A DNA stretch of 64,000 bases from Corythucha ciliata (Eukaryota; Arthropoda; Insecta; Hemiptera; Tingidae), in the NCBI GenBank assembly GCA_038030265.1, contig CM075941.1, positions 44,702,164 to 44,766,163 on the forward strand. The letters are read 5' to 3'. Positions within the stretch are counted from its first letter, which is position 1, and every line of letters begins with the position of its first letter. The translations under genes and the position numbers were made by a program. The notes under the pieces were generated by a model, which ran no database searches, was not told where the DNA came from, and saw nothing but the letters and a program-made list of their open reading frames with translations. This document shows, in pieces, positions 3,601 through 40,500 of this stretch.

Positions 3601-3830
3601 CCAAAATTTGTGCTCTTTTCAGAAAAATAATCGGTATTGTTCTGTTACGAATGGCAAGGACGCTAGAAATAATTATTGACGAAAAGAACACGTTTGGCCG
3701 AAAAATGACAAAAATACCTAAAACTCGGAAACGAAGCGTTTGCGACCCTATGTTTATGGTGATTTTGGTTCGTCCTCGTTAGTACTAGGACTGGTGAAAG
3801 TCCTGATCATTCCTCCTGAAACACCCTGTA
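651..3830. mobile_element. Fold-back DNA transposon A, Tc1/mariner-like ends
   Basis: The element proper is 653-3828 and is flanked by TA on both sides (651-652 and 3829-3830), the target duplication expected for the Tc1/mariner superfamily. It starts CAGGGTGTTTCAGGA and ends with the inverse. The inverted repeats are long: about 653-1056 pairs with about 3411-3828, at high but imperfect identity. No transposase frame is visible, so it is non-autonomous. The interior is a ~30-bp minisatellite on the plus strand at about 1660-2590 and in reverse complement at about 2850-3410, so even the middle is roughly palindromic. Superfamily assignment rests on the TA flanks and on the related elements at 16169 and 26870, which keep transposase remnants. 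Confidence 0.75.
1660..3410. repeat. Minisatellite family 1, inside fold-back A
   Basis: These are degenerate units of about 29-31 bp with approximate consensus TTTCTCAATTTTAGCCGCG followed by AATTAGCG. They run on the plus strand to about 2590. From about 2850 the same unit appears in reverse complement (CGCTAATTC...AAAATTGAG). The flip coincides with the centre of the element. Confidence 0.7.
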
Positions 3831-11921: not shown

Positions 11922-12828
11922 GGAACCGGGAAAGGGAAGGCATATACATCCCCGGAATGGCGGTGGCAGAGAGCCTGACATTGGAGAAATATGCGACGGT
12001 GTTCCAGGCGGAGGTTGCGGCCATAGAGGCCTGTGCAATTGAACTGGGACGGAAAGGTGTGACAAATAAGCGAATAACGATATACTCGGACAGCCGAGCC
12101 GCCCTCGGGGACCATTTCCAGGTCGGTGGTCAAGTCGGGGGCGGTGGGGGCCTGTAGAGCTAGTTTATCGGCATTTCTGACGGAGGGCAACACGGTTACA
12201 TTAGGGTGGGTACCAGGTCATGCTGGCATTCCCGGTAATGAGAAAGCAGACGAACTGGCCAAGACATGACAGAATATGTCGGCCCAGAACCAGTGGTGGG
12301 GATAGCAAGGGAAGTAGGACTCAGTGAAATCCGGGGTTGGGCGAAAGCGGAAGCCCAGGCACGATGGGAAGCAGAAGACCACTGCAGACAAGCGAAAGAG
12401 GGTATTAAAAGGTATGATGCCAACACGACAAAGTGGCTGGTAGGGTTGGGACGAAAGCAAACTAGAAAGATAGTAGGAATATTTACAGGGCACTTTGTAG
12501 TTCAGAGACACTTGCACATGATGGGGCTAATAGGGTGCCCTACATGTGAGAGGTGTGGAGTGGAGGAGGAGACAACGGGTCACTTAGTGAGAGAGTGTGA
12601 AGGGTTTGCGGCAGCGAGGTTTGCTGTATTTGGGAGGGACAGGTTGACGACCTAGAATTTACCAGGGCTCAGGGGGTCCGTGTACTGGAGTTTCCGGGGA
12701 GGGTGAGGAGGTTTGAGGAGCCGTGCTAGCCCCTCCGTGTCCGGGACCCGCTGGGTATGACGTAGGGGCCCAATTGGTGGCCTTGGCGTCGCCGGACTCG
12801 GCTTGGCCGGGACGCCCCCCCCCCCCAA
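11922..12828 (+). mobile_element. 3' fragment of RNase H non-LTR element (left arm)
   Basis: Inverted copy of the 3' end of the element at 25261-29075. Frames at 11990-12110, 12180-12270 and 12266-12655 cover the RNase H domain (YSDSRAAL, then WVPGHAGIPGNEKADELAK) and the C-terminal zinc knuckle (CPTCERC...H...C). It begins inside RNase H, after the FTDGSK motif that the right copy keeps, because palindrome homology starts there. A one-base deletion near 12648 shortens the last frame relative to the right arm. The 13-bp target duplicate of the right copy follows at 12829-12841, so this insertion predates the inverted duplication. Confidence 0.8.
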
Positions 12829-12841
12829 ATACCTAGAGACT

Positions 12842-14065
12842 TGAGTTACTTTCACACAACCTGACAATAACAAAGCGTAGAATGAATAGGTGCTTTGTAA
12901 GAATGTAGAAGAGAATATGAAAGCACGAGCAGTGTCTATCCATAAGATCTTTCCTGCTATGATATTATGTATTCCATGTGATATCCTCAGGGTCATCAGG
13001 CATCCGTGGAATTCATTACATCCTTTCGGCTTCAGAGTTCGGAGGTTAAACTCAGGTCTACCTGAAAAATGAAACGACGGAGCATCAGTTTAAGACTTGT
13101 GGTTAAGAGATAGTCCTTCCGAAAGTGAACCGATACAATGACCGCGTAGCAAAACTTCAGACTTGTTCAGCGCTTAGTCTTTTGCCGTTGCAAAACTGTC
13201 AATCTAGCTCAGCGCTGAGTAAGTGTTTAATAATCCAACAAAACATGTTCCGAGGTGTTTCGATAGCCTTTTTCATCGCGATGAAACATTTCTGCCCTCT
13301 TTTGTTCCAAGTTGCCATAAAAGTTCAAGGAAAGGAATATTATTAGTTTTTAAGTCATACAACTTGATTAATATTTTAATTTTAGAGTTTTGGATTATTG
13401 CAATAAGCCAAAAGCCTAAAAATAAAATATTAATGAAGGAAAGGAAGTTACTTACCTTCCGACTATGATAACGGGAAGGTGAAAACTCACAAATCACCGT
13501 TGCATAACTCCAGTAAGCACTTAATTCTACACTTCAGCGTTTAAACACGAGCCCCGAGTTTTGCAACGCAACCAATGTAATGCAATTTCAGAAGCAAAAC
13601 AATTTGAAAGTTGGTGTATAAAACAGCTTTTTGGAACTGGTTACGGAGGCGAATTTGATTGTCTTGAGACAGTCAAGCATTGACAGCACTGAAAATTCCC
13701 TTATGTTTAAAATTTATATATTTTATTTTTGTCACTAAAATTTTATGAAGTAGGAAAAGTGATTTAGACCAACAAGATATTGTTAATAATACATCATTTA
13801 TATAAGTTATTATCAGTGGTTGTAAGTTTGTAATGTAACCTTCGACTTTAGAGTCCTTTAGGCGATTTTAGAGTCCTCTGCATTGCAGTTGTTACACTAA
13901 ATTGTTGAATTTTGGGCATACATCGTATTTACGATTAATTTGCGACGACTAGCATGGACGTTGTTATAGGGACTCAAGAATTTGCTGAGAAGGGGGAGTG
14001 ATTGACTATTTCTAAAGGCAGACTGACCCTGTGTCCGAGGCGAGGAACGTCGCCATATTCAAGTT
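12842..14065. other. Left-arm U2 upstream flank
   Basis: No supported protein gene. Related segments with a CAGTTTTGCAACG core near GCGCTGA recur at about 13140-13215 and in modified form near 13500-13570. The minus strand contains GAAG followed by GTAAGT and, 45 nt on, a T-rich AG (about 13410-13460). This looks like a tiny intron, but no coding exon or RNA could be attached. The mirror image is 24024-25247. Confidence 0.45.
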
Positions 14066-14108
14066 GGGTACTCAGTGGGTCGGCTAGGGGTTTAATGTCT
14101 GAGTACCC
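14066..14108 (+). promoter_or_regulatory. Inverted repeat in the U2 promoter region
   Basis: GGGTACTCAG (14066-14075) pairs with CTGAGTACCC (14099-14108) across a 23-nt loop, at about -64 to -22 from the U2 5' end. Animal snRNA genes carry their proximal sequence element around -50 to -60, so this may overlap it. The assignment is positional only. The same dyad precedes the right-arm U2 (23981-24023). Confidence 0.4.
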
Positions 14109-14129
14109 ATTCAGCGACATGTTGTAGTT

Positions 14130-14317
14130 ATCGCTTCTCGGCCTTTTGGCTAAGATCAAAGTGTAGTATCTGTTCTTATCAGCTTAATCTCTGGTACGGC
14201 TCCCATTGGGGGCCCCTGAAGATTAAACTGATTTTTGGAAAATGACGGAGTGTTAGGGGCTTGCTCCACCTCTGTCGCGGGTTGACCCGGTATTGCAGTA
14301 CCTCCGGGAACGGCCCA
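14130..14317 (+). ncRNA. U2 snRNA: U2 spliceosomal snRNA, intact copy
   Basis: U2 pairs with the intron branch site in the spliceosome. The gene starts ATCGCTTCTCGGCCTTTTGG and keeps the branch-site-pairing GTAGTA (about nt 33-38). The conserved TCTGTTCTTATCAG follows. An Sm site (GATTTTTGG, about 14230) and stem-loop IV (ACCCGGTATTGCAGTACCTCCGGGAACGG in pieces) are also present. The length of about 188 nt matches the family. Stem-loops IIb and III differ from vertebrate U2 in sequence but still pair by eye (GGCTCCC with GGGGGCC; GACGGAG with CTCTGTC), which suggests a functional gene. The 3' end is set by comparison with U2 and could be off by a few bases. No 3' box was identified. Confidence 0.93.
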
Positions 14318-14464
14318 CAAATATTTCTCACTTTTGTCCTTCCTTTTAAATAATCTGATATGGAACATAACGCACATGAATCTTGAATTGACCACTGCAA
14401 AACCTAGCCCGCGGGGCCAATGTCCCCCTCGCATTATTTCTTGTCTTGTCTCCGAGCATAGCTG

Positions 14465-15910
14465 TTAACCCTTTGAGATTCATAAGGAGGCAACGTGAAC
14501 AATTTTCGTTTATTTTTCATTAGTTACGATCACACATATCATAATTTTGCCGGGAAGGTGATTTTTACACATTTACGTCGGGAGGGGGGGTAAGGGACAA
14601 ATGTGTCCCTACGGACCTAAAAGGAACTTTTTCAAAACAAAGAAAACATCTAACATATTTAGTTGAAAACGGGTTTATTTATCAGAAATAATGTAATAGC
14701 GTTTCCCATTTGCATGCAATTCTGCAACGGGGCAGTTTATTTCCACCCGCCTTCCATTATCATACCTGTATGATTCAACTGAGAGATGATCTCTCTCAAA
14801 AATGGACCACCATCAATTTTGAGGAGGTCTTTGGAAAGCCCACAGAACGGACATGTTTTTCTGATAATGGGACCATATCGGAGGCATTATAAATTCGGCA
14901 GAAATCGTCGCTGAATTATGGGAGAAATTTAAAAGAAGTCACTTTCGCCATTTGTGGAAAAACATAAAAAACACTGAGTTCGTTTACAGCAGTTCAAAAC
15001 ACTGTTTTCTGAAGTGAAATTTGGTGGTCTTTTCAAAACCGTCAACAGTTTTTTTCTAAGCCCAGCGGTTGGGCCGTAAAATCGAGTTTTTGGAGAAAAA
15101 GTAGGCAGTCGATGAAAAAACACAATTGTACGCATATCTCAGAAGGAAAGCATTTGCGACCCTATGTTCATAGGATCATTTTGGTCGCAAATACTTAGTA
15201 GGTACTACAACACACTTCAGTACTATGCATTTCCTCCTGAATCACCCTGTATACACCAAATGGCTCCCCCCTTTTGCTTCCTGCACAGTTTGGACCGCTC
15301 CAAAATAAGGTAGGCGAGCTCACTGAAATGACCCAAATTGACGCTTTTGACTGAGAGCTTCTAGTCCTCATCCCTATTATCAATATCTCCATTTAACAAT
15401 TATTGTTGGTCCTCCTAATCGTGCGATTTTCGGTCGTCTTCTTCATCTTTTTCTTCGGCAAACAAAAATGTTCGTATCTCCTGATCCGCCATATCAAATA
15501 TTCGAAACATATTTTAGACATTTTCAATGAAATAATATGCTGACTGGTCGTTCGGCAAAAACGTCCATACGCCCAAAAATAATTTGATGATGTGAAAAAC
15601 GGCAACCATCCGTTAAACAACCAGGTTTAAAATAGGACAGTTTATTTTGGGGTTTACGTTGATTTTTCAGATTTATCGTAATAAAAAAATAAAAATACAG
15701 AATGCAATTTTATGGGATTTATAAATTACAAATTAAATATGAATAGAGCATATTTCAGATTAGGACTGAGGGTGAAAAATAAGCACCAACTATGTCATTG
15801 ACGAAATGTCGATGTCCGATACAAATATAACGTGTTTTCCTAATTAGAAAAATAATCAAAATTATTTGATTTCCTGGGACACAAGTGTCCCATAGACCTC
15901 AAAGGGTTAA
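14465..15910. mobile_element. piggyBac-like non-autonomous element (left arm)
   Basis: 1438 bp (14469-15906) flanked by TTAA (14465-14468 and 15907-15910), with terminal CCCTTTGAG and CTCAAAGGG and subterminal GGGACA...TGTCCC dyads. These are hallmarks of the piggyBac superfamily. On the minus strand a short frame starts MADQEIRTFLFAEEKDEEDD near 15497 and stops soon after. It is an acidic N-terminus consistent with a transposase remnant. The end of a CAGGGTG-type fold-back element (about 15125-15250) is nested inside, but its other end was not found. The matching copy is at 17867-19312. Confidence 0.75.
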
Positions 15911-16166
15911 GGTGCGTTTACACAGAAGTGTCTGACATTTATGTAGCAACACTCATGTCTCGACATAAATGTAAAGTGTCTGACACTTCTATATTGACCG
16001 TACAAATTCTGATAAAAATGTCTGGAAGTTCGTGTTTACACCAAGGAAAGGAAGGGTTCCCCGCATTAAGGGGGTCATTCCGGAAGCAGGCGGTAATCAC
16101 TTGGGACCAAAAAAGAAAATTTTTACCGAAGCGCGTTTGTCCAAAATGTGTTTTCTTACCGAATTA

Positions 16167-17610
16167 TACAGGGTGTTTCAGGACAAATGCCGAATATTTT
16201 AATATGTTGTAGTACTAAGTAATTGCGACCAAAATCACCCTATTGATATAGGATCGCAAATGATTTCTCTTGAAGTTACAGGCACATTTGTGTATTTTTA
16301 GCCATTCGCTGTTTTTCCTCTTAAAAGACCGACTAAACCTTTTTTTGTACCCTTAAACTGCCGGCGTTTTTGAAAAGATCACACAATTTTACTTCAGAAA
16401 ATGTCGATCAACATCATTTTAGTTGCCTCCAAAAATTTCGGTAATTCGTTAAAAATGAAGAAAGAGGCGTTTTCGAATTTTTCTGTGTACGTCAACGCCA
16501 GTTTCTGACCAAGTGATCATTATGAAAATTGTTTGCCTATTTCAGTAAAACATCTCCATCTCGTGAGCTTTCAATTGTTTTTGAAGAATTGAAATCGGTC
16601 ATTTTATCATGAGATATTGTTCCTAACGTGTGAAAAAACACGGAGTAAGTCATCAATTAGGCATAGGTGAACCTTCCTTAAACGCGTTTGATAACAGAGT
16701 AAATTTGTTGGCTTTTGCTAATTAATCGGTTTAGTGAGGTCCAATAAGATCCCTCCCTACCATACCACACCACACATTCATAAAAATCGTCGCTGAATTA
16801 CTTTCGATTGCGGCATTGAGGTTTTCTTCCTCCCACTGGCGCCAGTTCGACTGTTGTTCATACCGTCTCGGGTAAACGTGGCTTCGTCCGAAAAAAGAGT
16901 AAGAGGAACGGAATACTGATTCTCAAACACCCAGTGCAAAAAAATAGAAAACGTTTGCAGTAAGGGGGAGGGGGGTAAATTTTTTGGGAGTTTTGTCCTT
17001 TGTCACTTAAAGTGCATTTCATTTAGAAAATTTAAGACAGGTTATCAAACTGAATAATCAGCAAAAACCAACTTTACTTTGTAATAACGCGTTAAAGGAA
17101 GTTTCACCTATGCCTTAATTGATGACTTACTCCGTGTTTTTTCACACGTTCGGAACAATATCTCATATAAAAATGAACCGATTTCAATTCTTCAAAAAAC
17201 AATTGAAAGCTCACGAGATGGAGATGTTTTACTGAAATAGGCAAACAATTTTCATAATGATCACTTGGTCAGAAACTGGCGTTGACGTACACAGAAAAAT
17301 TCGAAAACGCCTCTTTCTTCATTTTTAACGAATTACCGAAATTTTTGGAGGCAACTAAAATGATGTTGATCGACATTTTCTGAAGTAAAATTGTGTGATC
17401 TTTTCAAAAACGCCGGCAGTTTAAGGGTACAAAAAAAGGTTTAGTCGGTCTTTTAAGAGGAAAAACAGCGAATGGCTAAAAATACACAAATGTGCCTGTA
17501 ACTTCAAGAGAAATCATTTGCGACCCTATATCAATAGGGTGATTTTGGTCGCAATTACTTAGTACTACAACATATTAAAATATTCGGCATTTTTCCTGAA
17601 ACACCCTGTA
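16167..17610. mobile_element. Fold-back element C with transposase remnant, palindrome centre
   Basis: 1440 bp (16169-17608) with TA on each side and CAGGGTGTTTCAGGA termini. The inverted repeats span about 16169-16695 and 17090-17608, leaving a loop of about 390 bp. On the minus strand the loop (about 16950-16740) reads FLHWVFENQYSVPLTLFSDE then ATFTRDGMNNS, followed after frame changes by NVWCGM and LIGPH. That order (FxDE..F.RDG..N...NVW.G..G..LIGP) is the DDE catalytic region of Tc1/mariner-type transposases. It is frameshifted and lacks the N-terminus, so it is not functional. It forms the spacer of the large palindrome. Confidence 0.78.
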
Positions 17611-17866
17611 TAATTCGGTAAGAAAACACATTTTGGACAAACGCGCTTCGGTAAAAATTTTCTTTTTTGGTCCCAAGTGATTACCGCCTGCTTCCGGAAT
17701 GACCCCCTTAATGCGGGGAACCCTTCCTTTCCTTGGTGTAAACACGAACTTCCAGACATTTTTATCAGAATTTGTACGGTCAATATAGAAGTGTCAGACA
17801 CTTTACATTTATGTCGAGACATGAGTGTTGCTACATAAATGTCAGACACTTCTGTGTAAACGCACC

Positions 17867-19312
17867 TTAACCCTTTGAGGTCTATGGGACACTTGTGTCC
17901 CAGGAAATCAAATAATTTTGATTATTTTTCTAATTAGGAAAACACGTTATATTTGTATTGGACATCGACATTTCGTCAATGACATAGTTGGTGCTTATTT
18001 TTCACCCTCAGTCCTAATCTGAAATATGCTCTATTCATATTTAATTTGTAATTTATAAATCCCATAAAATTGCATTCTGTATTTTTATTTTTTTATTACG
18101 ATAAATCTGAAAAATCAACGTAAACCCCAAAATAAACTGTCCTATTTTAAACCTGGTTGTTTAACGGATGGTTGCCGTTTTTCACATCATCAAATTATTT
18201 TTGGGCGTATGGACGTTTTTGCCGAACGACCAGTCAGCATATTATTTCATTGAAAATGTCTAAAATATGTTTCGAATATTTGATATGGCGGATCAGGAGA
18301 TACGAACATTTTTGTTTGCCGAAGAAAAAGATGAAGAAGACGACCGAAAATCGCTCGATTAGGAGGACCAACAATAATTGTTAAACGGAGATATTGATAA
18401 TAGGGATGAGGACTAGAAGCTCTCAGTCAAAAGCGTCAATTTGGGTCATTTCAGTGAGCTCGCCTACCTTATTTTGGAGCGGTCCAAACTGTGCAGGAAG
18501 CAAAAGGGGGGAGCCATTTGGTGTATACAGGGTGATTCAGGAGGAAATGCATATACTGAAGTGTGTTGTAGTACCTACTAAGTATTTGCGACCAAAATGA
18601 TCCTATGAACATAGGGTCGCAAATGCTTTCCTTCTGAGATATGCGTACAATTGTGTTTTTTCATCGACTGCCTACTTTTTCTCCAAAAACTCGATTTTAC
18701 GGCCCAACCGCTGGGCTTAGAAAAAAACTGTTGACGGTTTTGAAAAGACCACCAAATTTCACTTCAGAAAACAGTGTTTTGAACTGCTGTAAACGAACTC
18801 AGTGTTTTTTATGTTTTTCCACAAATGGCGAAAGTGACTTCTTTTAAATTTCTCCCATAATTCAGCGACGATTTCTGCCGAATTTATAATGCCTCCGATA
18901 TGGTCCCATTATCAGAAAAACATGTCCGTTCTGTGGGCTTTCCAAAGACCTCCTCAAAATTGATGGTGGTCCATTTTTGAGAGAGATCATCTCTCAGTTG
19001 AATCATATACAGGTATGATAATGGAAGGCGGGTGGAAATAAACTGCCCCGTTGCAGAATTGCATGCAAATGGGAAACGCTATTACATTATTTCTGATAAA
19101 TAAAACCGTTTTCAACTAAATATGTTGGATGTTTTCTTTGTTTTGAAAAAGTTCCTTTTAGGTCCGTAGGGACACATTTGTCCCTTACCCCCCCTCCCGA
19201 CGTAAATGTGTAAAAATCACCTTCCGGCAAAATTATGATATGTGTGATCGTAACTAATGAAAAATAAACGAAAATTGTTCACGTTGCCTCCTTATGAATC
19301 TCAAAGGGTTAA
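17867..19312. mobile_element. piggyBac-like non-autonomous element (right arm)
   Basis: Inverted duplicate of 14465-15910, again 1438 bp between TTAA sites (17867-17870 and 19309-19312). The acidic N-terminal remnant starts with ATG near 18287 on the plus strand. The nested one-ended CAGGGTG terminus begins at 18528 after TA. It differs from the left copy by scattered single bases. Confidence 0.75.
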
Positions 19313-19587
19313 CAGCTATGCTCGGAGACAAGACAAGAAATAATGCGAGGGGGACATTGGCCCCGCGGGCTAGGTTTTGCAGTGGTCAATTCAAGATTCA
19401 TGTGCGTATGTTCCATATCAGATTATTTAAAAGGAAGGACAAAAGTGAGAAATATTTGTGGGCCGTTCCCGGAGGTACTGCAATACCGGGTCAACCCGCG
19501 ACAGAGGTGGAGCAAGCCCCTAACACTCCGTCATTTTCCAAAAATCAGTTTAATCTTCAGGGGCCCCCAATGGGAGCCGTACCAGAG

Positions 19588-19608
19588 ATTAAGCTGATAA
19601 GAACAGAT
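19588..19608. repeat. Target-site duplication, 3' side of U2 insertion
   Basis: A 21-bp sequence starting ATTAAGCTGATAAG, identical to 23901-23921. It corresponds to U2 nucleotides 39-59. Confidence 0.92.
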
Positions 19609-19797
19609 TTTTGTTTATTTTATCATATATACAATTTGTACATCGGTCAGTAAGTATAAACGAATTCCTCACTTAGTATTTGACAATTTGGAGGATTTGA
19701 ATGTAAATATTTACAGGAACAATTTGGATTTATACACTATATACAAGTTTAGTGGCAAAATATTTACAATGGTTAATATATTTACAAGGTAAAATAT

Positions 19798-22700
19798 TCA
19801 CATCATTGATTCGCTTTCAATGCTGGTGTCGATTAGCAGGTGGAAGCTGACATCATCGCCATCGATGTCGTCTTCGGCCTCGGTCTGCTCGATATTCTCG
19901 TCGTTGGAGGGCCAGGCTGCCTGCGCCATAGGACCACTCTCAGCCGGTAGGCCAGTGAGATGCCGCATATAGATAATGCGAGAGGCTGCGATGATGTCGG
20001 CAGTGATAAGGCGCTTCATCTTCTTGATGTAGCGTCGGCTGCCGAGGCGTTTAGCGTCTCGGTCGTTCTCAGGGTCCCAAGTTCCGAGGGCCCCGACGAT
20101 GATAGGGACTATCTTCACGCTGGGGAAGCGTTCGAGGAGCCTTGTCTTAACGGGCTCATATTTTTCTATTTTCCGTTCCCGAGCCGCTTGGAAGGCCTCT
20201 GGCCGATTCTCAAATGGGACGGTGACGTCGATGATCCAGGCCTCGTTTCTTTTGGATAGGACGAGGTCGGGGCGTAATCGTGAGCCATCGACGGAGGTGT
20301 TTTTGCCAATTACGCTGAATCCTGCGTAACGTGCGGCAGTTTCGAGTCGGTTCACTATTGAATTGTGTCGACTTTGGTATTGGGCGGAGTGGATTAGGCA
20401 GTGGTCAAGGACGTGGGCTAACGACTCGACGTGGCAGGGGCATCGTCGACATCCTCGAGGGTTGCCCAGGTGGTTGTTCCCATGGAGCGGGACGGTGCCG
20501 AGACGAGCGCGGTGAATGAATCGCCAGTCTGCGAACGCTAGGTATTGGCCTGTGTACGTGAAGTGACTGCTGTCTGGCGATTGTCGTAGGCAGTCAGCTA
20601 CCCGTCCTTGGTGAGGTTTCCTTCGGAGAGCAATGCCCCGCTGGAGCTGGAGTTGGTGACGAACCGTGTGGCATACTTTCCTGCGGCTTGACGGAGTGAT
20701 ATGGCTTTCCCCGATTGTGAGAGAAGTTTGTGCTTCGGAGAAAGACCATGTCACTGCCAGCCGCCGAGATGCAGCGCGGGCACGGGTCCATATATTGCCT
20801 GCTGTAGAACTTCGTGGGAGGGACGTATCTCCTGATAGAAAGTTCGAGCGTTGATCCGTCTGTTGTTCAGATTGGCGAGGTAGGGTGCGAGTGAGTTCGT
20901 CAGCGGCGATTCGTTGAATGGTCAGGTCCGGGCTTGTCAGGAGCTTGAAGGCTGTGTCGATGAGGGCAACGTCACTTTCCTCAGCGGCAATGGGCAAGCC
21001 GCAGAGGCCTTCTGATCTCGCCCCGTACAAATATTCGTTCGACGCCTCTTCTGGGAGGTTAAGCGTCTTTTTGACTTCAGGGCGGAATACGTTGTCTAGC
21101 CTGTCCCACGCTCCTTTAGGGAATTGGCCCATTCGCATGGAGAAATTCATCGCGGGGAACACAAAAGTCCGAAGGGCGTCCAAGCGTTGCCAGGGGGCGA
21201 GTTTTGATCGGAGGATCTTGAGTCCGGTCTCACAGATTTCCTCGATTGTGGCTTGAGGGTTGACGATGTGGAAGCCCACTGGTTGTCCGAGGAAGGAGTG
21301 TATATCACCGTCCGTGATGGGGACTAGCGGAGTTCCATCGATGATTATCATCGAGGGACGTAGACCTCGTGGCGTGGTTCCACTGATGTGGGCACTCCTG
21401 CATTTTGTTGGGTTAACTCTAAGTCCAAGTTGGTGAAATATGTATGTGGTAGTGTCAACATTGCGTTGAAGTGTAGCTTCATCCCCTGCTAGTAATGTGA
21501 CGTCATCGGCGTATGCTAGTATAGCAGGGCTTCCTTCATGGTATATGTGTTCCAGCGCTACGTTGATCGTGACATTGAAGAGGATGCCACTCAGAGGGCA
21601 TCCTTGGCGGACTCCACATAGGACGGGGATGGAAGGTGTCGACGTATCTCCGCATCGAACGGAGGTGGAGAGGTCCGTAAGAGCGTCCTGGAGGATGTCG
21701 CAAAAAGCGTCACCTGCTCCACGTTGACGGAAGGTGGCGATGATGGCGTCATGGGGCAGGGCACCGAAGGCGTTAGTTATGTCCAGCCAGGCGACGTATA
21801 GATTTTCACGCTGGGTCCGGGCCTGGTGGAGTAAGTGTTGTAGAGCATAGTTATGCTCTAGGACACCGTCGTAGGCCGTAAATCCTTTTTGCGCCGGGGA
21901 GAGGATGTTGTTCGCTGAGCACCACGACGCGACTCGGTCAGCCAGGAGTCCGGCGAACATCTTGTATAGTGTTGAAGAGAGGGCGATTGGTCTCCAGTCG
22001 GCCAGGGTTTCAGGATTCTCATTCTTAGGTATGAGAATTGTGGTCGATTTCTTCCACCTGGTAGGGATTCGGCGTTGTCGGAGACAGATGTTGAAAATTT
22101 GGGTCAGAACGTGAGCCTCAGGGTCCAATGTTTTCCAGGCATGGTAGTCAAGGCGGTCGGGGCCGGGGGCGGTGTTCTCGAAGCGAGATCTGCGGCGGGT
22201 GACCTCTTCATGGGTGAAGGGGGTCATGTTAATGGATTGATCAGCGTGAATGATGTCATCTAAGACGGCAGCGTCAAACTCACGTCGAGTCGCCCAGATG
22301 TTGTGGAAGTGGTCGGTGACTTCTTCGGCGGGGGCCATGCAGCGGGCTGTCTGGGATCCTACGATAGCTCGGATGGCTTTTCGCCGATTACGACGGTATA
22401 CACCCTGAATGGTCTTTGCGTCTTCGACATTGACGACTCGTGGGGGGGGTGTGGGGCCCTCGGTAGTGGCGAGCCTAAGGTGTTGTTGAGCAGCATTGAT
22501 GATTTCTGCAACGATGTCTTCGAAGGTGCTCCATGCGAGACGAGGTGAGGCGTACATGTGGCGCAATCGTGGCCCGAAGGCCGAGAGAGGCGATTCTAAT
22601 AAGGCACCGTCAGCTGCGGGTTCGAATATTCCGGTGAGGGGCTCTGGTTGGTGGTCGTGTTGCGGCGAATTTGTGGGGCTACGTCGTTGGCCGAATTGTA

Positions 22701-23469
22701 TGGGGGAACGCGGCGCCAGTGCGATAGATGGAGCCGGCGATTGTGGGATGTCGAATATGGATGGCTCCGTCTCGGGGTTGTCCGGAACGTTTGGAGGGGT
22801 TGCGGGTGGTATGACGAGCGGACTCAGGTTGTTCAAGGGGGTGGGAGGCCTTGGCGAAGATGACACGCTATTAATGTCTATGGGGGGCTCCAGGGGATGT
22901 CTCGCAGGTGGTGATGGTGGCTGGGAGTCCTCCTCGGGGATGTCGATCGGGAGAGGTTGGATTCGACGGCGGCGCGCCCGTGTTGCCGGCGCCGGAAGCT
23001 GAGCACGAGCAATGGCCCGCCGAGGGTTCATGATGTGTTCACCGACTACGTGGTTGTCCAGGCCCTTTTTTGTCGTGAAGACGTGAGGGCATTCTGGGCA
23101 TTGAAGGCATCCCGGGGGTGGTTCCATCTCCGGCCGAGGACTCCGACGCAGGCAAGAGTGAAGAGTTGGCCGGGATTGAAGCTCCGAGTTGCAGAGGGAG
23201 CAGATGTGACGAGTTTCAGTCCGTACATCGTGTGTGGCCTGGAGGTGTCGTCCCAGGGATTGGAGGCATGAAGTCCAAGCCTTGCTCGCAAAGCGATGAC
23301 CACACACCGGACACGCGAGGATCGTTTGTCCTGAAGGCAGTTGCGGCAGTGGGTGGTGGCAAGTGAGAACGCCATTATCGAGCTGTAGTCTCTCTTCGTG
23401 GTTTAGGAGGCGAACCGGCGCGTCCTGACTTTGACGAGAAATAGTTCGTAATTTAACACACTCACTGAA
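19798..23469 (-). CDS. Utopia-like ORF: zinc fingers, reverse transcriptase, RLE
   Basis: Predicted to nick U2 DNA and reverse-transcribe its own RNA there. The frame is open from 23469 (after two stops) to TGA at 19798. Numbering from the GTG at 23307 gives 1169 residues. C2H2 finger 1 is CPVC (just upstream) with H21 and H26; a C2HC finger has C36, C39, H50, C52; C2H2 finger 3 has C70, C73, H86, H91. A proline-rich linker spans about 100-260. RT motifs are motif A D509, GVRQGCPLSG at 565-574 and YADD at 599-602. The zinc knuckle is C953, C956, H965, C970. The restriction-like endonuclease has RPD (D1014), IDVT (D1027) and K1046 or K1049. All catalytic motifs are intact. No in-frame ATG precedes codon 61, which lies beyond finger 2, so initiation is probably non-AUG. 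Confidence 0.93.
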   Translation of the reverse strand, partial: FSECVKLRTISRQSQDAPVRLLNHEERLQLDNGVLTCHHPLPQLPSGQTILACPVCGHRFASKAWTSCLQSLGRHLQATHDVRTETRHICSLCNSELQSRPTLHSCLRRSPRPEMEPPPGCLQCPECPHVFTTKKGLDNHVVGEHIMNPRRAIARAQLPAPATRARRRRIQPLPIDIPEEDSQPPSPPARHPLEPPIDINSVSSSPRPPTPLNNLSPLVIPPATPPNVPDNPETEPSIFDIPQSPAPSIALAPRSPIQFGQRRSPTNSPQHDHQPEPLTGIFEPAADGALLESPLSAFGPRLRHMYASPRLAWSTFEDIVAEIINAAQQHLRLATTEGPTPPPRVVNVEDAKTIQGVYRRNRRKAIRAIVGSQTARCMAPAEEVTDHFHNIWATRREFDAAVLDDIIHADQSINMTPFTHEEVTRRRSRFENTAPGPDRLDYHAWKTLDPEAHVLTQIFNICLRQRRIPTRWKKSTTILIPKNENPETLADWRPIALSSTLYKMFAGLLADRVASWCSANNILSPAQKGFTAYDGVLEHNYALQHLLHQARTQRENLYVAWLDITNAFGALPHDAIIATFRQRGAGDAFCDILQDALTDLSTSVRCGDTSTPSIPVLCGVRQGCPLSGILFNVTINVALEHIYHEGSPAILAYADDVTLLAGDEATLQRNVDTTTYIFHQLGLRVNPTKCRSAHISGTTPRGLRPSMIIIDGTPLVPITDGDIHSFLGQPVGFHIVNPQATIEEICETGLKILRSKLAPWQRLDALRTFVFPAMNFSMRMGQFPKGAWDRLDNVFRPEVKKTLNLPEEASNEYLYGARSEGLCGLPIAAEESDVALIDTAFKLLTSPDLTIQRIAADELTRTLPRQSEQQTDQRSNFLSGDTSLPRSSTAGNIWTRARAASRRLAVTWSFSEAQTSLTIGESHITPSSRRKVCHTVRHQLQLQRGIALRRKPHQGRVADCLRQSPDSSHFTYTGQYLAFADWRFIHRARLGTVPLHGNNHLGNPRGCRRCPCHVESLAHVLDHCLIHSAQYQSRHNSIVNRLETAARYAGFSVIGKNTSVDGSRLRPDLVLSKRNEAWIIDVTVPFENRPEAFQAARERKIEKYEPVKTRLLERFPSVKIVPIIVGALGTWDPENDRDAKRLGSRRYIKKMKRLITADIIAASRIIYMRHLTGLPAESGPMAQAAWPSNDENIEQTEAEDDIDGDDVSFHLLIDTSIESESMM

Positions 23470-23482
23470 TTATTAACTCGCG

Positions 23483-23900
23483 TATTTTACTGGGATGCAT
23501 TTTCGCGACACATAACTACGCTTCAGATCAGAGTATAGCACTGTGGTGGCGGGGGTAAAGAAAAAGAACGGGCTGAAGGCCGGGAGAAAAGAAGATCAGT
23601 GGGTCGGGGTGAATGAGAAAGTGAGGAGGGTGAGACTAAAGTGAAGGTGAACAACAAGGGTGGAGAGCGGACTTGAAAAGTGAAGGTGAACAGTTCAAAC
23701 AGCTGAGGGTTACAAACAAAGTTTCATAGTGAAACCTGCTAGGTAGGCTAGATGCCGTTAGAGTGAGCTGAGGGCTCCTAGTTGGGGAACCGAGTGTTCC
23801 CACTGAAGGTGAAAGGCAAACACTTTTGGCTGAAGGCCTGACAAGAAAAACTACTCACAGGAGGTTCGCGTTGATGAGATCCAAGAGGGTGTACACTCTT
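23483..23900 (-). promoter_or_regulatory. 5'UTR of the U2-inserted retrotransposon
   Basis: Read on the minus strand it is CT-rich and contains repeated short motifs: TTCACCTTCA occurs three times (near 23810, 23690 and 23650) and GGCCTTCAGCC twice (near 23835 and 23572). The first 18 nt (23900-23883) can form a small stem, AAGAG with CTCTT. These may be promoter or RNA-processing signals, but no known ribozyme fold could be confirmed by eye. Confidence 0.5.
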
Positions 23901-23921
23901 ATTAAGCTGATAAGAACAGAT
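23901..23921. repeat. Target-site duplication, 5' side of U2 insertion
   Basis: Identical to 19588-19608. The intact equivalent in the other arm is 14168-14188. Confidence 0.92.
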
Positions 23922-24023
23922 ACTACACTTTGATCTTAGCCAAAAGGCCGAGAAGCGATAACTACAACATGTCGCTGAATGGGTACTCAGACATTAAACC
24001 CCTAGCCGACCCACTGAGTACCC

Positions 24024-25247
24024 AACTTGAAAATGGCGACGTTCCTCGCCTCGGACACAGGGTCAGTCTGCCTTTAGAAATAGTCAATCACTCCCCCTTC
24101 TCAGCAAATTCTTGAGTCCCTATAACAACGTTCATGCTAGTCGTCGCAAATTAATCGTAAATACGATGTATGCCCAAAATTCAACAATTTAGTGTAACAA
24201 CTGCAATGCAGAGGACTCTAAAATCGCCTAAAGGACTCTAAAGTCGAAGGTTACATTACAAACTTACAACCACTGATAATAACTTATATAAATGATGTAT
24301 TATTAACAATATCTTGTTGGTCTAAATCACTTTTCCTACTTCATAAAATTTTAGTGACAAAAATAAAATATATAAATTTTAAACATAAGGGAATTTTCAG
24401 TGCTGTCAATGCTTGACTGTCTCAAGACAATCAAATTCGCCTCCGTAACCAGTTCCAAAAAGCTGTTTTATACACCAACTTTCAAATTGTTTTGCTTCTG
24501 AAATTGCATTACATTGGTTGCGTTGCAAAACTCGGGGCTCGTGTTTAAACGCTGAAGTGTAGAATTAAGTGCTTACTGGAGGTATGCAACGGTGATTTGT
24601 GAGTTTTCACCTTCCCGTTATCATAGTCGGAAGGTAAGTAACTTCCTTTCCTTCATTAATATTTTATTTTTAGGCTTTTGGCTTATTGCAATAATCCAAA
24701 ACTCTAAAATTAAAATATTAATCAAGTTGTATGACTTAAAAACTAATAATATTCCTTTCCTTGAACTTTTATGGCAACTTGGAACAAAAGAGGGCAGAAA
24801 TGTTTCATCGCGATGAAAAAGGCTATCGAAACACCTCGGAACATGTTTTGTTGGATTATTAAACACTTACTCAGCGCTGAGCTAGATTGACAGTTTTGCA
24901 ACGGCAAAAGACTAAGCGCTGAACAAGTCTGAAGTTTTGCAACGCGGTCATTGTATCGGTTCACTTTCGGAAGGACTATCTCTTAACCACAAGTCTTAAA
25001 CTGATGCTCCGTCGTTTCATTTTTCAGGTAGACCTGAGTTTAACCTCCGAACTCTGAAGCCGAAAGGATGTAATGAATTCCACGGATGCCTGATGACCCT
25101 GAGGATATCACATGGAATACATAATATCATAGCAGGAAAGATCTTATGGATAGACACTGCTCGTGCTTTCATATTCTCTTCTACATTCTTACAAAGCACC
25201 TATTCATTCTACGCTTTGTTATTGTCAGGTTGTGTGAAAGTAACTCA
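24024..25247. other. Right-arm U2 upstream flank
   Basis: Mirror image of 12842-14065 with scattered differences, e.g. GGAGGTATGCAACGG here against the inverse of GTTGCATAACTCC there. No supported gene. The plus strand carries GGAAG followed by GTAAGT at about 24633, and a T-rich stretch ending in AG about 45 nt later. Confidence 0.45.
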
Positions 25248-26867
25248 AGTCTCTAGGTATTTGGGGGGGGGGGGGCGTCCCGGCCAAGCCGAGTCCGGCG
25301 ACGCCAAGGCCACCAATTGGGCCCCTACGTCATACCCAGCGGGTCCCGGACACGGAGGGGCTAGCACGGCTCCTCAAACCTCCTCACCCTCCCCGGAAAC
25401 TCCAGTACACGGACCCCCTGAGCCCTGGTAAATTCTAGGTCGGTCAACCTGTCCCTCCCAAATACAGCAAACCTCGCTGCCGCAAACCCCTCACACTCTC
25501 TCACTAAGTGACCCGTTGTCTCCTCCTCCACTCCACACCTCTCACATGTAGGGCAACCTATTAGCCCCATCATGTGCAAGTGTCTCTGAACTACAAAGTG
25601 CCCTGTAAATATTCCTACTATCTTTCTAGCTTGCTTTCGTCCCAACCCTACCAGCCACTTTGTCGTGTTGGCATCATACCTTTTAATACCCTCTTTCGCT
25701 TGTCTGCAGTGGTCTTCTGCTTCCCATCGTGCCTGGGCTTCCGCTTTCGCCCAACCCCGGATTTCACTGAGTCCTACTTCCCTTGCTATCCCCACCACTG
25801 GTTCTGGGCCGACATATTCTGTCATGTCTTGGCCAGTTCGTCTGCTTTCTCATTACCGGGAATGCCAGCATGACCTGGTACCCACCCTAATGTAACCGTG
25901 TTGCCCTCCGTCAGAAATGCCGATAAACTAGCTCTACAGGCCCCCACCGCCCCCGACTTGACCACCGACCTGGAAATGGTCCCCGAGGGCGGCTCGGCTG
26001 TCCGAGTATATCGTTATTCGCTTATTTGTCACACCTTTCCGTCCCAGTTCAATTGCACAGGCCTCTATGGCCGCAACCTCCGCCTGGAACACCGTCGCAT
26101 ATTTCTCCAACGTCAGGCTCTCTGCCACCCCCATTCCGGGGATGTATATGCCCGACCCAGCCTTCCCTTTCCCGGTTCCAATTTTTGAACCGTCCGTAAA
26201 ACACTTGATCTCTTCTGTATCCCTCCATTCCTCCCCCCTTGCCCGGTCTCCCGGGATAGTTTGTCATGATCGTTCTTGCAAAGTCCCCTTGTTTTTTACC
26301 ATTTGATCCGATCTCACGCCCGTGGACGGTGCCACTCTGCGGATGTGTTCTCGTATCCCTCCGTTTCCCATCTTCCCTGACATGCAGTCCAATCTGTATG
26401 CCGCTTCCATAGCCCGTGCCTGCAGTTCAAGGCTTAAGGGTTTTAGTCCCAGCATTATCTCCATCGGTCTTGTTGGTGTCGTTCTGAACGCCCCTAGGGT
26501 CGCCAGACAGGCCAGCCTTTGCACTCTGTCTTGTTTAGCTGCGTTTCCCTTTTTGTTCGCCGCCTTCCACAAAACCGTGGTCCCGTATAGGATCCTTGGT
26601 CGGATAATCCCCGTGTACAACCATAGGGTCATTTTGGGGTTCAGGCCCCATGTTTTCCCCACTACCCTTCTAACTTGACAAAAGGTGCCCATCGCCTTTC
26701 GTATCCCTTATGTGCTTCTCCCAGCTCAGTCGATGATCTAGCCACACCCCTAAATACTTAAATTCAGTTGTTAACTCCACCTCCTTGCCCCTAATCTGTA
26801 GAGTCTGAAGCCCCGCCTGTTCCTTTTGTGAGTGAACGCAACGCCGACTCTGTCGATTTCCCTGCTA

Positions 26868-33257: not shown

Positions 33258-33893
<636 letters not shown>

Positions 33894-34351: not shown

Positions 34352-34550
34352 ATGGGGAAAGTTAAGAAATGCGGCGAAAAACAAGATTTGAGTGGCATTA
34401 TAAAGAGATTCGGTGTGTTGAAAAATTGTGGAAAGCTTTGAGTGTTCTCTCTTCTACTTAATTTTCATTCCTCAAACAGGTAACATTCAACTTTTAGAAG
34501 AGGTCGTACACGCACCCTCGTTGGAATGTCAAATTTCTGCTTTGAAAGAG
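34352..34550 (+). CDS. THADA: THADA exons 1-2
   Basis: Exon 1 is 34352-34412 (M G K V K K..., a lysine-rich start like vertebrate THADA) and ends before GTGTGT. Exon 2 is 34480-34550 ([16 protein letters not shown]...) between CTCAAACAG and GTAAGA. Exon 1 ends with one base of a codon and exon 2 supplies the other two. If exon 1 read on, it would hit TGA at about 34439. Exon 1 is the least certain part of the model because it is short. Confidence 0.7.
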
Positions 34551-37500
34551 GTAAGAGCCAGTCTTATCGACTACTGTCCCTTGGGACACTCCGAGGAGCG
34601 TCTTCACTACGGATGGTTCCGTAAACGTCCAAAACGGATAGGAACTCAGAAAGTGTTATCCCCTCCCCCCCCCCATAGGACCAAGAATTCTCCTCCGTTA
34701 GATGGTCTCCTTAATCTGATGGTGCCAAAAACCATTCAGCCGAGACACACATTACCTGCCTGGGACCGGACTCTATTATGGTAGGACTATTTTATGGCTC
34801 CCGAAGCTTATCCTGATAACCAGCTTGGGACGCAAAGCACAGGGTCATCATCTGAGTTACCAGGCTCCATTTGGGCCTCTCATGAAGCCCGAAATTCGCG
34901 CAGACGATAGGTCTGTTCCAGCAAGGTGTTTGGAACATGTTCCGAGCAGAGTTGCTATGGGACTACCCAATAAAATTAAGTTGATTAAATTTTATTGGTT
35001 GGTCCCATGCCAACTCTGCTCCAAACATGTTCCAAACACCTTGCTGGATAGGCCAGGGCATTCCATTGCACGTCCCATTCGCCTATTTCATAATTCGGTC
35101 AGCGCTGTCGTTGGCCACTTGGGAACTAGCTCATGTGGGCAGTCTTCTAATAGTTTCTAGTAGAAATCACCCACAACAACTGTTTCCCTAAATGGCCAAC
35201 TACAGTGCTGCCGGAAATATGATCAAGGCGAATTGTCGCTTCATCTCTGTCTTCGAAACAGTCCATTTATTCCCAGAATCACATTTTTCCGGCACCCAAA
35301 ACATCTTCTGTGTGTGACTCAACCCCAAAACTGAACCCCAAACGGATTCCAAACCAGACGAGCCGTTGAAGGGGTTCTCCGTGTGATTCCAGTGATTTGT
35401 GCCCATTTTCCGGGGCACCACGAATATTTTACAGTGGACAGCGCCCAGGTGTTCATCAGCCCTTGACGTCCGAGGAAAAGCCTCAAAACACAATCGGCCA
35501 ACGCTGGCCTGCCGTGGAGCGGAGAAATTCCTGCTGGTTAGCTTGTTAAATCCACCGCAACGAAAAGCTGGTTCCAAAACTTCCAATTTTGCTTAAGCTG
35601 GACTTGCATTCGCTTAAATCAACAGCCGAAGACTCGAATTACAAAAACCTCTTACCAATAATGCACCAACCACAAAAAACGGTAACTACAAGAAACACTC
35701 AACCACGAAATGCTCTAACCACAAAAGCTTGATTCCCAAAAAGCTCGAATCACTAAAATGCTGTAACCTGATCAAACGAAGTCCAACCAAAGAAAACTTG
35801 AACCCAAAGAGACCAAACGCCGGAAGCTGCAACCCCAAAATGGTCTAACCACCAAATAAATTAATCACAGAAAGCAGCTAACCCTAAAATACGCAAATTA
35901 CAAAACGCTCCAACCACAAGATCCTCCAACAACAGAAAACTCTAACCACAAAAACCTCTAACCAAAACAACACTTAACCACAACACTTAAAGGTTGGACC
36001 CTAAAAAGCTCTAACCACAGAAAGCCTTGACTACTAGAACTCTAACCACTGAAAAAGTGAAGCACAAAAACTAGGATCACGCCCATTTTCATTCTAAGAA
36101 TAAAATTATCACATGCCCAATGTAAGTTTTAGAAAATGTATACCAGAATCCGGGACAAACTGCTTCCGGGATGGGACGGTTGGCAACTCTAGCTAACACC
36201 CTGTGTCCAAGATCTCCAGAGAAAATGACCCTGAAACTTGCAATTTCCTAAAAATTGTGCCGAAAACGTCCGATTTCGCAGAAATTTGCCTTAAAAATGT
36301 TTCAAATGCTGTTAGGGGCATGGCGTACTGGGCTCGAGTTCCATCGTAGCGGCTATCTCTGCGAACCCATAAAAAGTAAATGAAATACAATTACACGGAA
36401 TCACAACACAAATTGTGGTTCTTACAATTTCACGGAAATTTAGCCCCAAAACTTGCAGTTATTTCAAAATTGAGGCTCGAAATTTGCATTTTAGCAATAA
36501 TTAAGACCCGAAACTTGCATTTTAACTAAAAGTGTGCCTGAAAACGTCCAATATCGCAGAAATTTACCTCCAAAATGTAGCAAATTTATTATAGAGGCCA
36601 GGCGTATGGGCCTCGCGTCATAGCGGGCTAGTCCGGTGAACCCACAAAAAAACAATTTATATCGTACAATTTCACGGAAATTGAGCACCAAAACTTGCAA
36701 TTATTCCGAAATTAAGGCCCGCCGCAAATTGAGCCCACGCGTGGGTCACCCAAGCTGAAAAAACAGTTGAAAATTGATAGTTTTCTAACTGTTTTTTGAG
36801 CTTGTGTGAGCCACGCGTGAGCTCAATTTGCGGCGTGCCCAAGGCCCGTAACTTACAATTTGGCTGAAATTATGACCCGAAATTTGCAAATTAACTAAAA
36901 CTGCGCCTGAAAACCTCCAATTTCGTAGGGATTTGCCTCCAAAACGTTGCCAATTTGTTTCCCAAGTTGTTGAAGACCTAGCGCGGCGAATGGGCCTTGA
37001 AGTCCGTCGTAGCGGGCTAGCCCGGCGAACCCACAATAAACAATTAAAAACTTACAATATCACGGAAATTTATCACCAAAACTTGCAATTTATCCGTAAT
37101 TAAGGCCAGTAACTTACAATTTTCCTGAAATTAGGACCCGAAATGTGTATTTTCGCAAGAATTAAGACCCGAAACTTGCATTTTAGCCGAAATCATATCC
37201 GAACTTCCTATTTCGATGTTAGTCGTCACCAGGTCTCCGCTACAAAAATGTTCCGTACACTGTAATTTTGCTTTAATTTTTTGTGGATATTTTCTTTCAA
37301 AATGTTGCAATTTTGCGGCTATTCATCAAAAGACTTTGGGTCCTGTCGCGGCTGGCTAGCCGAGGGGCCTCGGTCTCTTACAAAAAAGGCCATAAACTTG
37401 ATTTCGACAAATTGCGAGGTAACTTTCAATTTGCAATTTGCTGGATATTTAAAGCTGAAACTTACGATTCGCAGTTTTTATACCAGAATGGTGCCATTCT

Positions 37501-40500
37501 GTGAATATTTCTCTCAATTTTAATTGCAGGTGAAAATTGGAAAGTTTTTTCTTAATTTTATCTGCGAATTGAAGCTTTTTCTCAATTTTATCCGCGAATT
37601 TGCGATTTTCTAAATTTTAGCGGCGAATTAGTGATGTCTTTTTAATTTTAGCGTTCAATCAGAGTTTTTTATCCCTTTTTGGCCGCGGACTCGACCCAAG
37701 AACGGCACATTAGGGATTTTCATAATTTTAGCCGCAAATTAGCGATTTTTTCCCCTTCTATCGATGAATTAGCGCTTTCTCACTTCTGTTATCCACGAAG
37801 TTGCCTCTATAAACCGCGAAAAAGAGTTTTATAATGTTGTTGTCGAACTGACGTTTTCTTAGGTTTGGTCGTTAAGTGACTTTGCGAAAAAATTGACATT
37901 TTTTCTGTGGAAACACTGTTTTTTGGGCGGAATTTCAAGATTATTTTGTTTCTTTAAAGGTCGGAATGTTCAGCTTTGATGCTAATGAGCCAGTTTGATG
38001 GAGAAATTTACGATTCCTATTGTATCTGGTTTCGAACGAAGACGAGTTGAAGATAAGTTGAGTTGAAGCCCTCTCATTGCTACGCCCTTGCTACCATTTA
38101 GCTTAACGAAACAGCAAGGCCCCGTGATTCAGGCGATTTTGGCCGCTTTGGCCAATTTTCCGGGGCTTGCGAATTATCCCGTGGACAGTGGCCATGTGAT
38201 GGTTTGCTCTAACGGCCCGCTTAGGGGCGTCTTGGCCAACACTGTCTGCACTCGTCGGCTAAACCTGGTCTGAGGGACTCGTAAACGGCCTTTGGCTCAG
38301 ATTACGGCTATTTGAGAAAATTGGCCAAAAATTACGCCCACCCAACCACGGGCGTTTGCGTCACGAGAAGTCCGAAAATGAATCAAATAAGCCATTGAAG
38401 GGGTTCTCCCTGTGATTCCGGTGATTTTTGCAGCTTTGGCCCATCTAGGAAAATTCCAGGGGCATCCCACGAATTTTTTCGTAGACGGTGGCCACGATAT
38501 GGTCATCGGCCCTGATGTCCAACAGAAAAGCGCCTCGACGCAGTCGGCCGTCGCTGGCCCCTCTCTGTGGAGTGTAGAAATTCGGCCGATACGACCTACG
38601 CGAAAGATCGAGCCAATACCGTGACCCAATGGGTCCATTCTTATAGCTTTTAACAACGCCATCAGAAGGCTATAATAATCGTGGAAATGTTGAATCCCGA
38701 GTCCTCGCTAGGCTTATGGCCTTAATCGCATAAATAATGAGTCGATTTCGCCGTATTTTGAGGACGAAGAAAGATTTTCCAAATTATACCTCACCCCTTT
38801 TAATCCCATTTTCGGCACCTAGGTACCCAAACATCTCCCAGGCAACCAAGCACCAGAAACTGAGGCGTTACTGACAGCTATTTTGGAAATCGTTCTAAAA
38901 TTTGAAGTAAAAAACCCACTGAGGATAGCAAGCGTTAAGTGAGTTATTTCGTTACTTATTAAAATAATTAAATTAAAGAGATTAAACTTGTTAAATTTTG
39001 TGGCACAGCGTTTTACAGTCTCTGCCTGAGTCGTATAAATCGAGTCTTGACAGTAAATTCGAAGCCGTTTTACTGGGTTTATTGGGCGCTAGTTTAGACA
39101 TTGACAACATTAATAATACGATAAATTTTACTACAAGTTTAAATAATATTGTCTGCGAGTCACAACTCGGCTCCCGAGTTTTAAATTATTTGAAAGAAGC
39201 CTTGGAGGAATGCTTGGGGAAGCTCAGGTAAAAAACCGTGAACATTAAGCGCACAATTTCAGAGTTTTACGTGTAAAATAATTCGTCCTAGGATCGAATT
39301 GGGACCGCAGGACCGACTCAGCATCATCGACTGCGTTCACAATGGCGTTCGTTGTGCGATTATGTTCAGCCAGAAACTATCCGGCCCGTCTGTCGATTTC
39401 AAAGATCTCGCCCGACGAATGATACAAGACTCTCAGTTTCCACTGAACGTTCGGTCGAACTGCTCGATCCTACTCGTCCTGTCGTTTGAATCGTTCGATT
39501 ATAGCAGCGTATGTGTGTCCCTTCATTTAAAAATTTTACGAAAAAAAAGTTCGAAAGTTGACGGGGCATGCGCAGAATTCTGGCAGTCGCGTGGTCCTCG
39601 CGCTTGGGGCGTTGTAACGAATATTTCAAAAAGAGACAACTTTTGTTTAGATACGAGGATTTATGGGCGAAATAGACTCGTTTAGCGAGTTATTTTTAAT
39701 TTACGGACCTTTGAGCTTGGGATCATCGAAGGATTTATCTCTGAGTTATAGCGATCTGGAGGGATTTTTCGAGCGAATCATGTCGATAGAGTCGAGGTGA
39801 GCTCAAATAAAAAGAAGAGAAAAAAAATATTCGCATTTTGTGAACAAACTTTTCCCAGGAATTCAGCCGATTGTCAGTTGTTACTGCTGTCAAGTCGGTG
39901 CTTGCGTCTAGCTGTGAAGTGCCTAACGCAAGCCCCTCGGACAGAATTGTTGCAGCACTTATTGGACTTAATTTGGTGTCACCTGGAGCATTTCATGGAC
40001 TCAGTTCGACACTTAGCATTAACAACTTTAAACGATCTGGTTGAGATCGGTTTAAAAACGGGTAAGTGATCATAAAGCTATTAAAATTGGGTTTATGTCT
40101 ACTTTTTTTTTTCAGAGAACCAAGTCATCATAGAGGCGATTAAAACTCAGATAATGAAAACTCCAACTGAAAGGCGTTCAAAACACGCTGGAATCACCTC
40201 CCTTATCGGCCACGTACCCATAATTGACCTTTTGGGCAGTTCAAACAATTTGGCCACCAGTTTATTAGACGCGGCTTCGTGTAACGCCGGTTTAAATCAC
40301 GTAAATAATCGTGTCACAGCATTACGTGACGTGTTGTAGCCATTTGATTCGTACAATAACACCCGTTAAAACCACACAGGCCGTCAGCTCTCTGGAGGCT
40401 CTTATGGTTCAGCACTACAAAGAGTGCGATAAAATGAGTTGGTTCGAATACTGGTGCGAACCACTTTTGGCTAAAATTAAAAGCGACGGTTTAAACGCGG

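Follow-up and report, generated by a model that had tools for sequence, protein, structure and literature searches.

A Utopia-type non-LTR retrotransposon with a 20-21-bp target duplication in a U2 snRNA gene of the lace bug Corythucha ciliata

In Kojima and Jurka (2015; PMC4640811), Utopia elements are described with NeSL and YURE as relatives in the published tree, with a 3' flank that begins at U2 nt 39, with hosts that include the aphid Acyrthosiphon pisum (Hemiptera) and with a target duplication of 20 bp in reptiles but none in arthropods. The paper also reports a tandem insertion of Utopia in Nasonia, looser specificity of Utopia in reptiles and some ants, and use of the same U2 site by Keno, which has an apurinic-type endonuclease; the persistence of several U2-only families on about ten intact targets is said there to be hard to explain. 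In a second paper (PMC13188248), elements without a Myb domain are classed as Utopia rather than R2. A report of Utopia in C. ciliata was not among the matches listed for open-licence papers (Utopia with U2 snRNA, springtail, NeSL since 2016, Hemiptera), and the word 'retrotransposon' did not occur in the main text of the published C. ciliata genome paper. The element described below, which lies in a U2 snRNA gene of this lace bug, is full-length and very probably belongs to Utopia, a lineage of non-LTR retrotransposons with a restriction-type endonuclease, as judged from its junctions, its domains and a reverse transcriptase (RT) tree that contained no named Utopia rows. This identity, U2-targeting and with a restriction-like endonuclease, had been proposed in a first-pass annotation of the DNA and is supported by the junctions, the domains and an RT outside the R2 rows.

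The window (i.e., the whole stretch of 64,000 nucleotides analysed, on contig C5) contains a minus-strand U2 snRNA gene split by an element of 4,292 bp at 19609-23900, which has the same sense as U2. An Rfam scan of the window gave one intact U2 gene at 14130-14323 on the plus strand (180.6 bits); two further matches to U2, at 19453-19639 and 23859-23959 of the minus strand, were partial. By alignment, the 5' part of the interrupted gene (local nt 1-59) occupies 23901-23959 and the 3' part (local nt 39-194) 19453-19608, both on the minus strand and both identical to the intact gene. The 21 letters ATCTGTTCTTATCAGCTTAAT were found at both ends of the element, at 23901-23921 next to its 5' end and at 19588-19608 next to its 3' end, and form a perfect target site duplication, the length of which is given as 20-21 bp because the leading A of the repeat is indistinguishable from the A-rich 3' end of the element and could belong to it. 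Since the local gene has one additional A relative to the Rfam consensus, the repeat begins at consensus nt 38 (A) or 39 (T). With this adjoining A ambiguous, the unambiguous 3' flank begins within the U2 gene at consensus nt 39 (TCTG), i.e., at the nucleotide published for Utopia. The size, place and sense orientation of the element had thus been anticipated almost to the base by the first-pass annotation, as had the duplication, given there as 21 bp of U2 nt 39-59.

The gene lies in one arm of a palindrome identified by self-comparison (arm without the element, 11939-16732; spacer, 16733-17046; arm with the element, 17047-26152), and the intact gene at 14130-14323 lies in the opposite arm. 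When the flanks of the element were joined without it, they aligned in one piece (query 1-4641) with the intact inverted U2 arm at 99.1% identity over 4,650 columns. The element is thus present in one arm only, and the other arm represents the empty site. Assembly-wide, the exact 20-mer target was found at eight sites, of which four are in intact U2 genes and the other four are at Utopia junctions, two of these being the ends of the window element. Because the joined flanks match the intact arm and the exact 20-mer occurs only at U2 genes and Utopia junctions, chance insertion was considered excluded. Twelve 20-mers with two mismatches were found, compared with two for a reversed control pattern; as further U2-like targets these were rejected, four of the 12 that were fetched being one unrelated palindromic repeat and several of the remaining eight having identical letters.

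The specificity of insertion was also evident from other copies in the assembly (400.9 Mb, 57 contigs, built from PacBio CLR reads). A protein search gave at least 40 matches, a lower bound, of which nine were Utopia-like and fell in four places, with the window copy on C5, two pieces on C1, five on C6 and one on C2. Eight more belong to a cluster at C2:29.99-30.59 Mb, described below. Another 23 were weaker matches, among them two (L052 and L047) with frames that by eye resemble APE-type elements and that fall among APE-type rows in the RT tree. Two Utopia families were distinguished, with 46-63% protein identity between them, depending on the piece; within family 2, the copies on C2 and C6 match at 91% over 1,343 columns. 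Element ends were searched separately from the protein, with counts that are again lower bounds and with family 2 covered for its 3' ends. The 3' end of family 1 was found in the window copy and as a 45-bp piece of a 3'-truncated C1 copy, its 5' ends on C5 and C6, and the 3' ends of family 2 on C2 and C6. All three intact 3' ends, from two families (C5 window, C6 and C2), run into U2 at the identical nucleotide. U2 nt 59, which is 20-21 bp beyond the 3' junction, precedes each of the two intact 5' ends of family 1 (C5 and C6). The genome-wide search for element ends joined to U2 that had been suggested with the first-pass annotation therefore came out in its favour. No intact element end at an unrelated site was found in the assembly among 3' ends of both families and 5' ends of family 1.

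On C6 the insertions are stacked, such that a family-2 3' end, a 21-bp piece of U2 and a family-1 5' end follow in direct succession, and the 21 bp that precede the family-1 5' end there are the same as in the window. Neither the C6 nor the C1 copy of family 1 bears on the 3' site, since the former is truncated and covers, with gaps, element nt 1 to about 2379, and the latter has neither end. That a non-specific element lies in U2 by accident, or that the locus is an assembly join, might be argued from the less specific Utopia of reptiles and some ants (PMC4640811) and from an assembly of PacBio CLR reads. Such an origin is nevertheless extremely unlikely given the U2 site at every intact 3' end (3/3) and intact family-1 5' end (2/2) found, the recurrence of these 21 bp directly ahead of a family-1 5' end on a different chromosome and the empty site in the intact arm.

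Within the element, all features lie on the minus strand, and a 5' untranslated region of 431 nt (23470-23900) and a 3' untranslated region of 189 nt (19609-19797), terminating ...AATAAACAAAA, flank a single frame of 1,223 codons and a stop (23469-19798). The initial 18 nt of the element (AAGAGTGTACACCCTCTT, window 23883-23900) form an imperfect palindrome that is unchanged in the C6 copy. No HDV-type ribozyme was among the Rfam matches at E up to 5 for the 5' end of the element (23300-23960), which consisted of U2 and one weak snoRNA match far under cut-off. The frame is open throughout and has no Met before codon 115, upstream of which zinc fingers 1 and 2 are encoded; translation may begin at a non-AUG codon, or the original start may have been lost. 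The first-pass description of the ORF as apparently intact thus holds for the open frame of 1,223 codons and not for its start.

Fingers, RT and PD-(D/E)xK endonuclease, as listed in the first-pass annotation, were recovered by a Pfam match to RVT_1, by motifs and by alignment to R2 proteins. At the N-terminus, a zinc-finger-like motif (CPVC...H...H, 23230-23313) is aligned with homologues and is followed by a second cluster (CxxC...H, 23158-23202) and by C2H2 finger 3 (23035-23100; motif and PF00096, E 0.011); finger 3 scores under the Pfam cut-off, and fingers 1 and 2 were assigned by motif and alignment only. The central RT domain (RVT_1, 21388-22032, E 1.7e-26) includes AYADD at 21502-21516. 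Toward the C-terminus, a CCHC knuckle (20398-20451) lies upstream of a restriction-like endonuclease core motif, RPD-x12-DVT (20221-20274), both assigned by motif and alignment. In an alignment of seven rows, columns of C, H, P and D were invariant, those in the endonuclease core being P, D and D. The RT region and residues 996-1151 also matched R2 proteins of known structure by sequence alignment, residues 996-1151 corresponding to the R2 C-terminus. One to three N-terminal zinc fingers, a central RT and one C-terminal zinc motif are thus predicted, in the Utopia order, as is a C-terminal PD-(D/E)xK endonuclease of the restriction-like type expected of Utopia.

Pfam was run at E up to 1 on residues 55-1223, and within that range no endonuclease model scored and no apurinic-type endonuclease domain appeared. 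Nor was Myb matched there, although the same library gave a below-cut-off Myb match in P0009, and the element accordingly falls on the Utopia side of the no-Myb distinction from R2 drawn in PMC13188248. Pfam also gave no Ulp1 protease (C48) domain in the element, although the same library scored C48 in P0029. An AlphaFold2 model of the element protein, built with a 15-row alignment, had a mean pLDDT of 74.7, and in a Foldseek comparison of the model with the PDB the top seven matches were all R2 proteins (E 9.5e-45 to 4.6e-34), followed by LINE-1 (1.3e-21); with rmsd values of 7.5-31.5 and ranges not given, these matches indicate likeness of overall architecture and not of the endonuclease alone. 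An alternative is Keno (Tx1 clade), which uses an apurinic-type endonuclease and targets the identical U2 site, but the probability of this reading is negligible, since the Pfam run just described lacked an apurinic-type domain, the C-terminus carries CCHC and RPD/D motifs and aligns to R2, and the window RT is apart from the four APE-type rows of the RT tree.

For this tree, 37 RT candidates were assembled (22 of 30 proteins found, 12 loci of the genome itself, two R2 regions from the PDB and the window element), of which 32 became rows, three being too short and two dropped as fragments; none of the rows is a named Utopia, NeSL, HERO or Keno RT. The window RT fell in a clade of 16 rows (100/99) made up of aphid, adelgid, spider and springtail rows and one unnamed row, the named rows all being from arthropods. 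The eight R2 rows, which include R2-like elements of the same genome, were on one side of a branch (99/94) and the window RT was not among them. Rows closest to the window RT by path were aphid and adelgid elements not named as Utopia, and its position within the clade is a fork. The RT phylogeny called for by the first-pass annotation was thus answered in part: the window RT is outside the R2 rows and separate from the four APE-type rows, in a tree without named Utopia, NeSL or HERO rows. Placement was unsure for P0016, P0028 and P0030, which had long end branches; P0016, considered as an oomycete-type Utopia, was rejected, its RNase H being placed after the RT.

The composition of this tree leaves some room for a separate restriction-endonuclease lineage outside Utopia that evolved independently to the same U2 site, as Keno did with another endonuclease. 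Keno is proof that this site can be chosen twice (PMC4640811), and a 20-21-bp duplication is unlike what is stated there for arthropods. Such a lineage is nonetheless improbable, since the endonuclease type, the 3' junction nucleotide and the domain order are all as published for Utopia and since the closest RT rows by path are aphid and adelgid elements, one aphid being a published Utopia host (same paper). Membership in the Utopia lineage thus remains much the better reading of the window element.

An R2-like cluster was also noted at C2:29.99-30.60 Mb, where eight loci (L034-L036, L038-L040, L042 and L043) form several groups by RT. Pieces of 28S rRNA were present at four of the eight, and the six loci placed in the tree fell with R2. 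A remnant of Utopia family 2 with U2 nt 39-99 lies inside the region of this cluster.

The U2 account of the assembly comprises four intact genes, one split gene, two remnants at Utopia junctions and the two Utopia families, and three of the four intact genes are within palindromes. The arms of the window palindrome are about 4.8 kb, element apart, and outside U2 they differ by 25 substitutions in 4,591 aligned bases (9/2,191 and 16/2,400) and 17 gap positions. The palindrome on C1 (C1:52789920-52807205) contains two intact U2 genes in 7.8-kb arms that are 99.8% alike. These arms also hold a stretch that matches the U5 region of the window at about 89%, whereas the window palindrome excludes its U5 gene (4499-4620, Rfam), and the two palindromes are thus of different extent. 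Self-comparison within 3.2 kb of the C6 U2 gene revealed no palindrome. An interrupted, truncated family-1 fragment on C1 (L024/L025, C1:52807203-52812044; 98.3% over 2,849 columns) meets the C1 palindrome at its outer edge; this junction is at element nt 3985, with 2 bp shared. A single fragment at a palindrome edge can be due to chance. Two differently bounded U2 palindromes, together with a 98% Utopia fragment exactly at the C1 edge, nevertheless raise the idea, which is doubtful and forms no part of the basis for the Utopia assignment, that Utopia cutting shapes its own target, in that repeated cleavage of U2 would break the locus and seed inverted duplications, and the resulting palindromes would supply a nearby intact U2 for gene conversion that also refills the empty target needed by the element.

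Other features of the window include an open single-exon Rab-like GTPase frame (33258-33893; family recognised by eye) and exons of a HEAT-type, putatively THADA-like gene at about 34422-52995. On the chromosome-size contig C2, a nearly perfect copy of mitochondrial COX1 was noted (L057, C2:28402495-28403835) that, under the invertebrate mitochondrial code, matches a record tagged Corythucha ciliata (CORCT; UniRef cluster labelled Tingidae) without a difference over 447 aa, the next being 98% (Corythucha) and 95% (Stephanitis) among the best 120 of 7,998. A springtail or spider host, to which the initial protein matches pointed, was rejected on this COX1 evidence.

Six solo U2 5' fragments were found far from U2 genes (L013, L014, L016, L017, L018 and C6:5855150-5855183). 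A pattern of U2 nt 5-38 with up to three mismatches, which also catches longer fragments and misses shorter ones, gave 11 matches (these six and five U2 genes) and none for the control. In the five fragments with flanks read, U2 ends at about nt 35-41, at the branch-site-pairing GUAGUA, and in the sixth seemingly near nt 33. Direct repeats were 17 bp in one fragment (the start of which matches U2 AGTATC) and 8 bp in another, and no convincing repeat was seen in three, two of which had repeats away from the edges and one none at all. From their sequences, the solo fragments look like tailless retropseudogenes primed inside U2, a kind of pseudogene reportedly described for mammals (PMC5322556). 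That they are duplication-free Utopia 5' junctions was rejected, RT-like matches being present in only two of five loci of 9.9 kb (L013 and L018; 21-41% identity); in L018 the RT-like piece is roughly 250 bp from the U2 fragment on the opposite strand, and its best match is an APE-type element. At C6:11742329-11742487 (L008/L015), a U2 fragment of nt 64-180 adjoins what appears by eye to be the integrase of an LTR retrotransposon.

To the observed position, orientation, domain order and duplication of the window element, and the same junctions on other chromosomes, a course of integration may be added by analogy with R2-type elements. The RNA of the element, which may be transcribed together with U2 from the U2 promoter, would associate with the protein that it encodes. 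The zinc fingers of this protein would read the U2 DNA, and the endonuclease would nick the bottom strand at consensus nt 38/39, immediately 3' of GUAGUA, which pairs with the branch site. The RT would then copy the element 3' end starting from this nick, and a cut of the top strand about 20 bp downstream would give the 20-21-bp duplication. In the split gene, U2 nt 1-59 still follow the native upstream sequence, but the gene should be dead because it is severed from the Sm site and the 3' stem-loops, a loss of one U2 gene that the host can afford because other U2 copies exist. A compact account of this kind in one species, with its small target set, allows direct tests of target supply, turnover and gene conversion, and an enzyme with such specificity for a single conserved site is also of interest to work on targeted insertion.

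Compared with known systems, the element differs from NeSL and YURE in the lack of an Ulp1 protease domain and in a target that is U2 rather than a spliced leader or U2 satellite; the NeSL combination of Ulp1-type protease and spliced-leader target is thus absent. Keno (Tx1 clade) shares the U2 site but has an apurinic-type endonuclease as opposed to the restriction-like enzyme predicted here. R2 has a similar overall protein architecture and includes the closest solved structures, but its target is 28S rDNA, whereas the C. ciliata element lies in U2, gave no Myb match and has an RT outside the R2 rows, so that neither R2 target nor R2 clade applies. With Utopia (NeSL clade; PMC4640811) it shares the U2 site and the identical 3' junction nucleotide, a single ORF with N-terminal fingers, central RT, C-terminal zinc motif and, as predicted, restriction-like endonuclease, as well as low copy number, more than one family per genome and a tandem insertion like that published for Nasonia. 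It differs from published Utopia in having no RNase H or protease domain and in its setting, a heteropteran host in which four intact U2 genes were found, three of them in palindromes. What had been taken as an additional host is new as a suborder (Heteroptera) and not as an order, since Hemiptera is already represented by A. pisum (PMC4640811). The more notable point is the 20-21-bp duplication, because the same paper states that arthropod Utopia make none; this feature varies in the lineage and does not define it, and a duplication of about 20 bp here suggests that top-strand cutting varies within arthropods.
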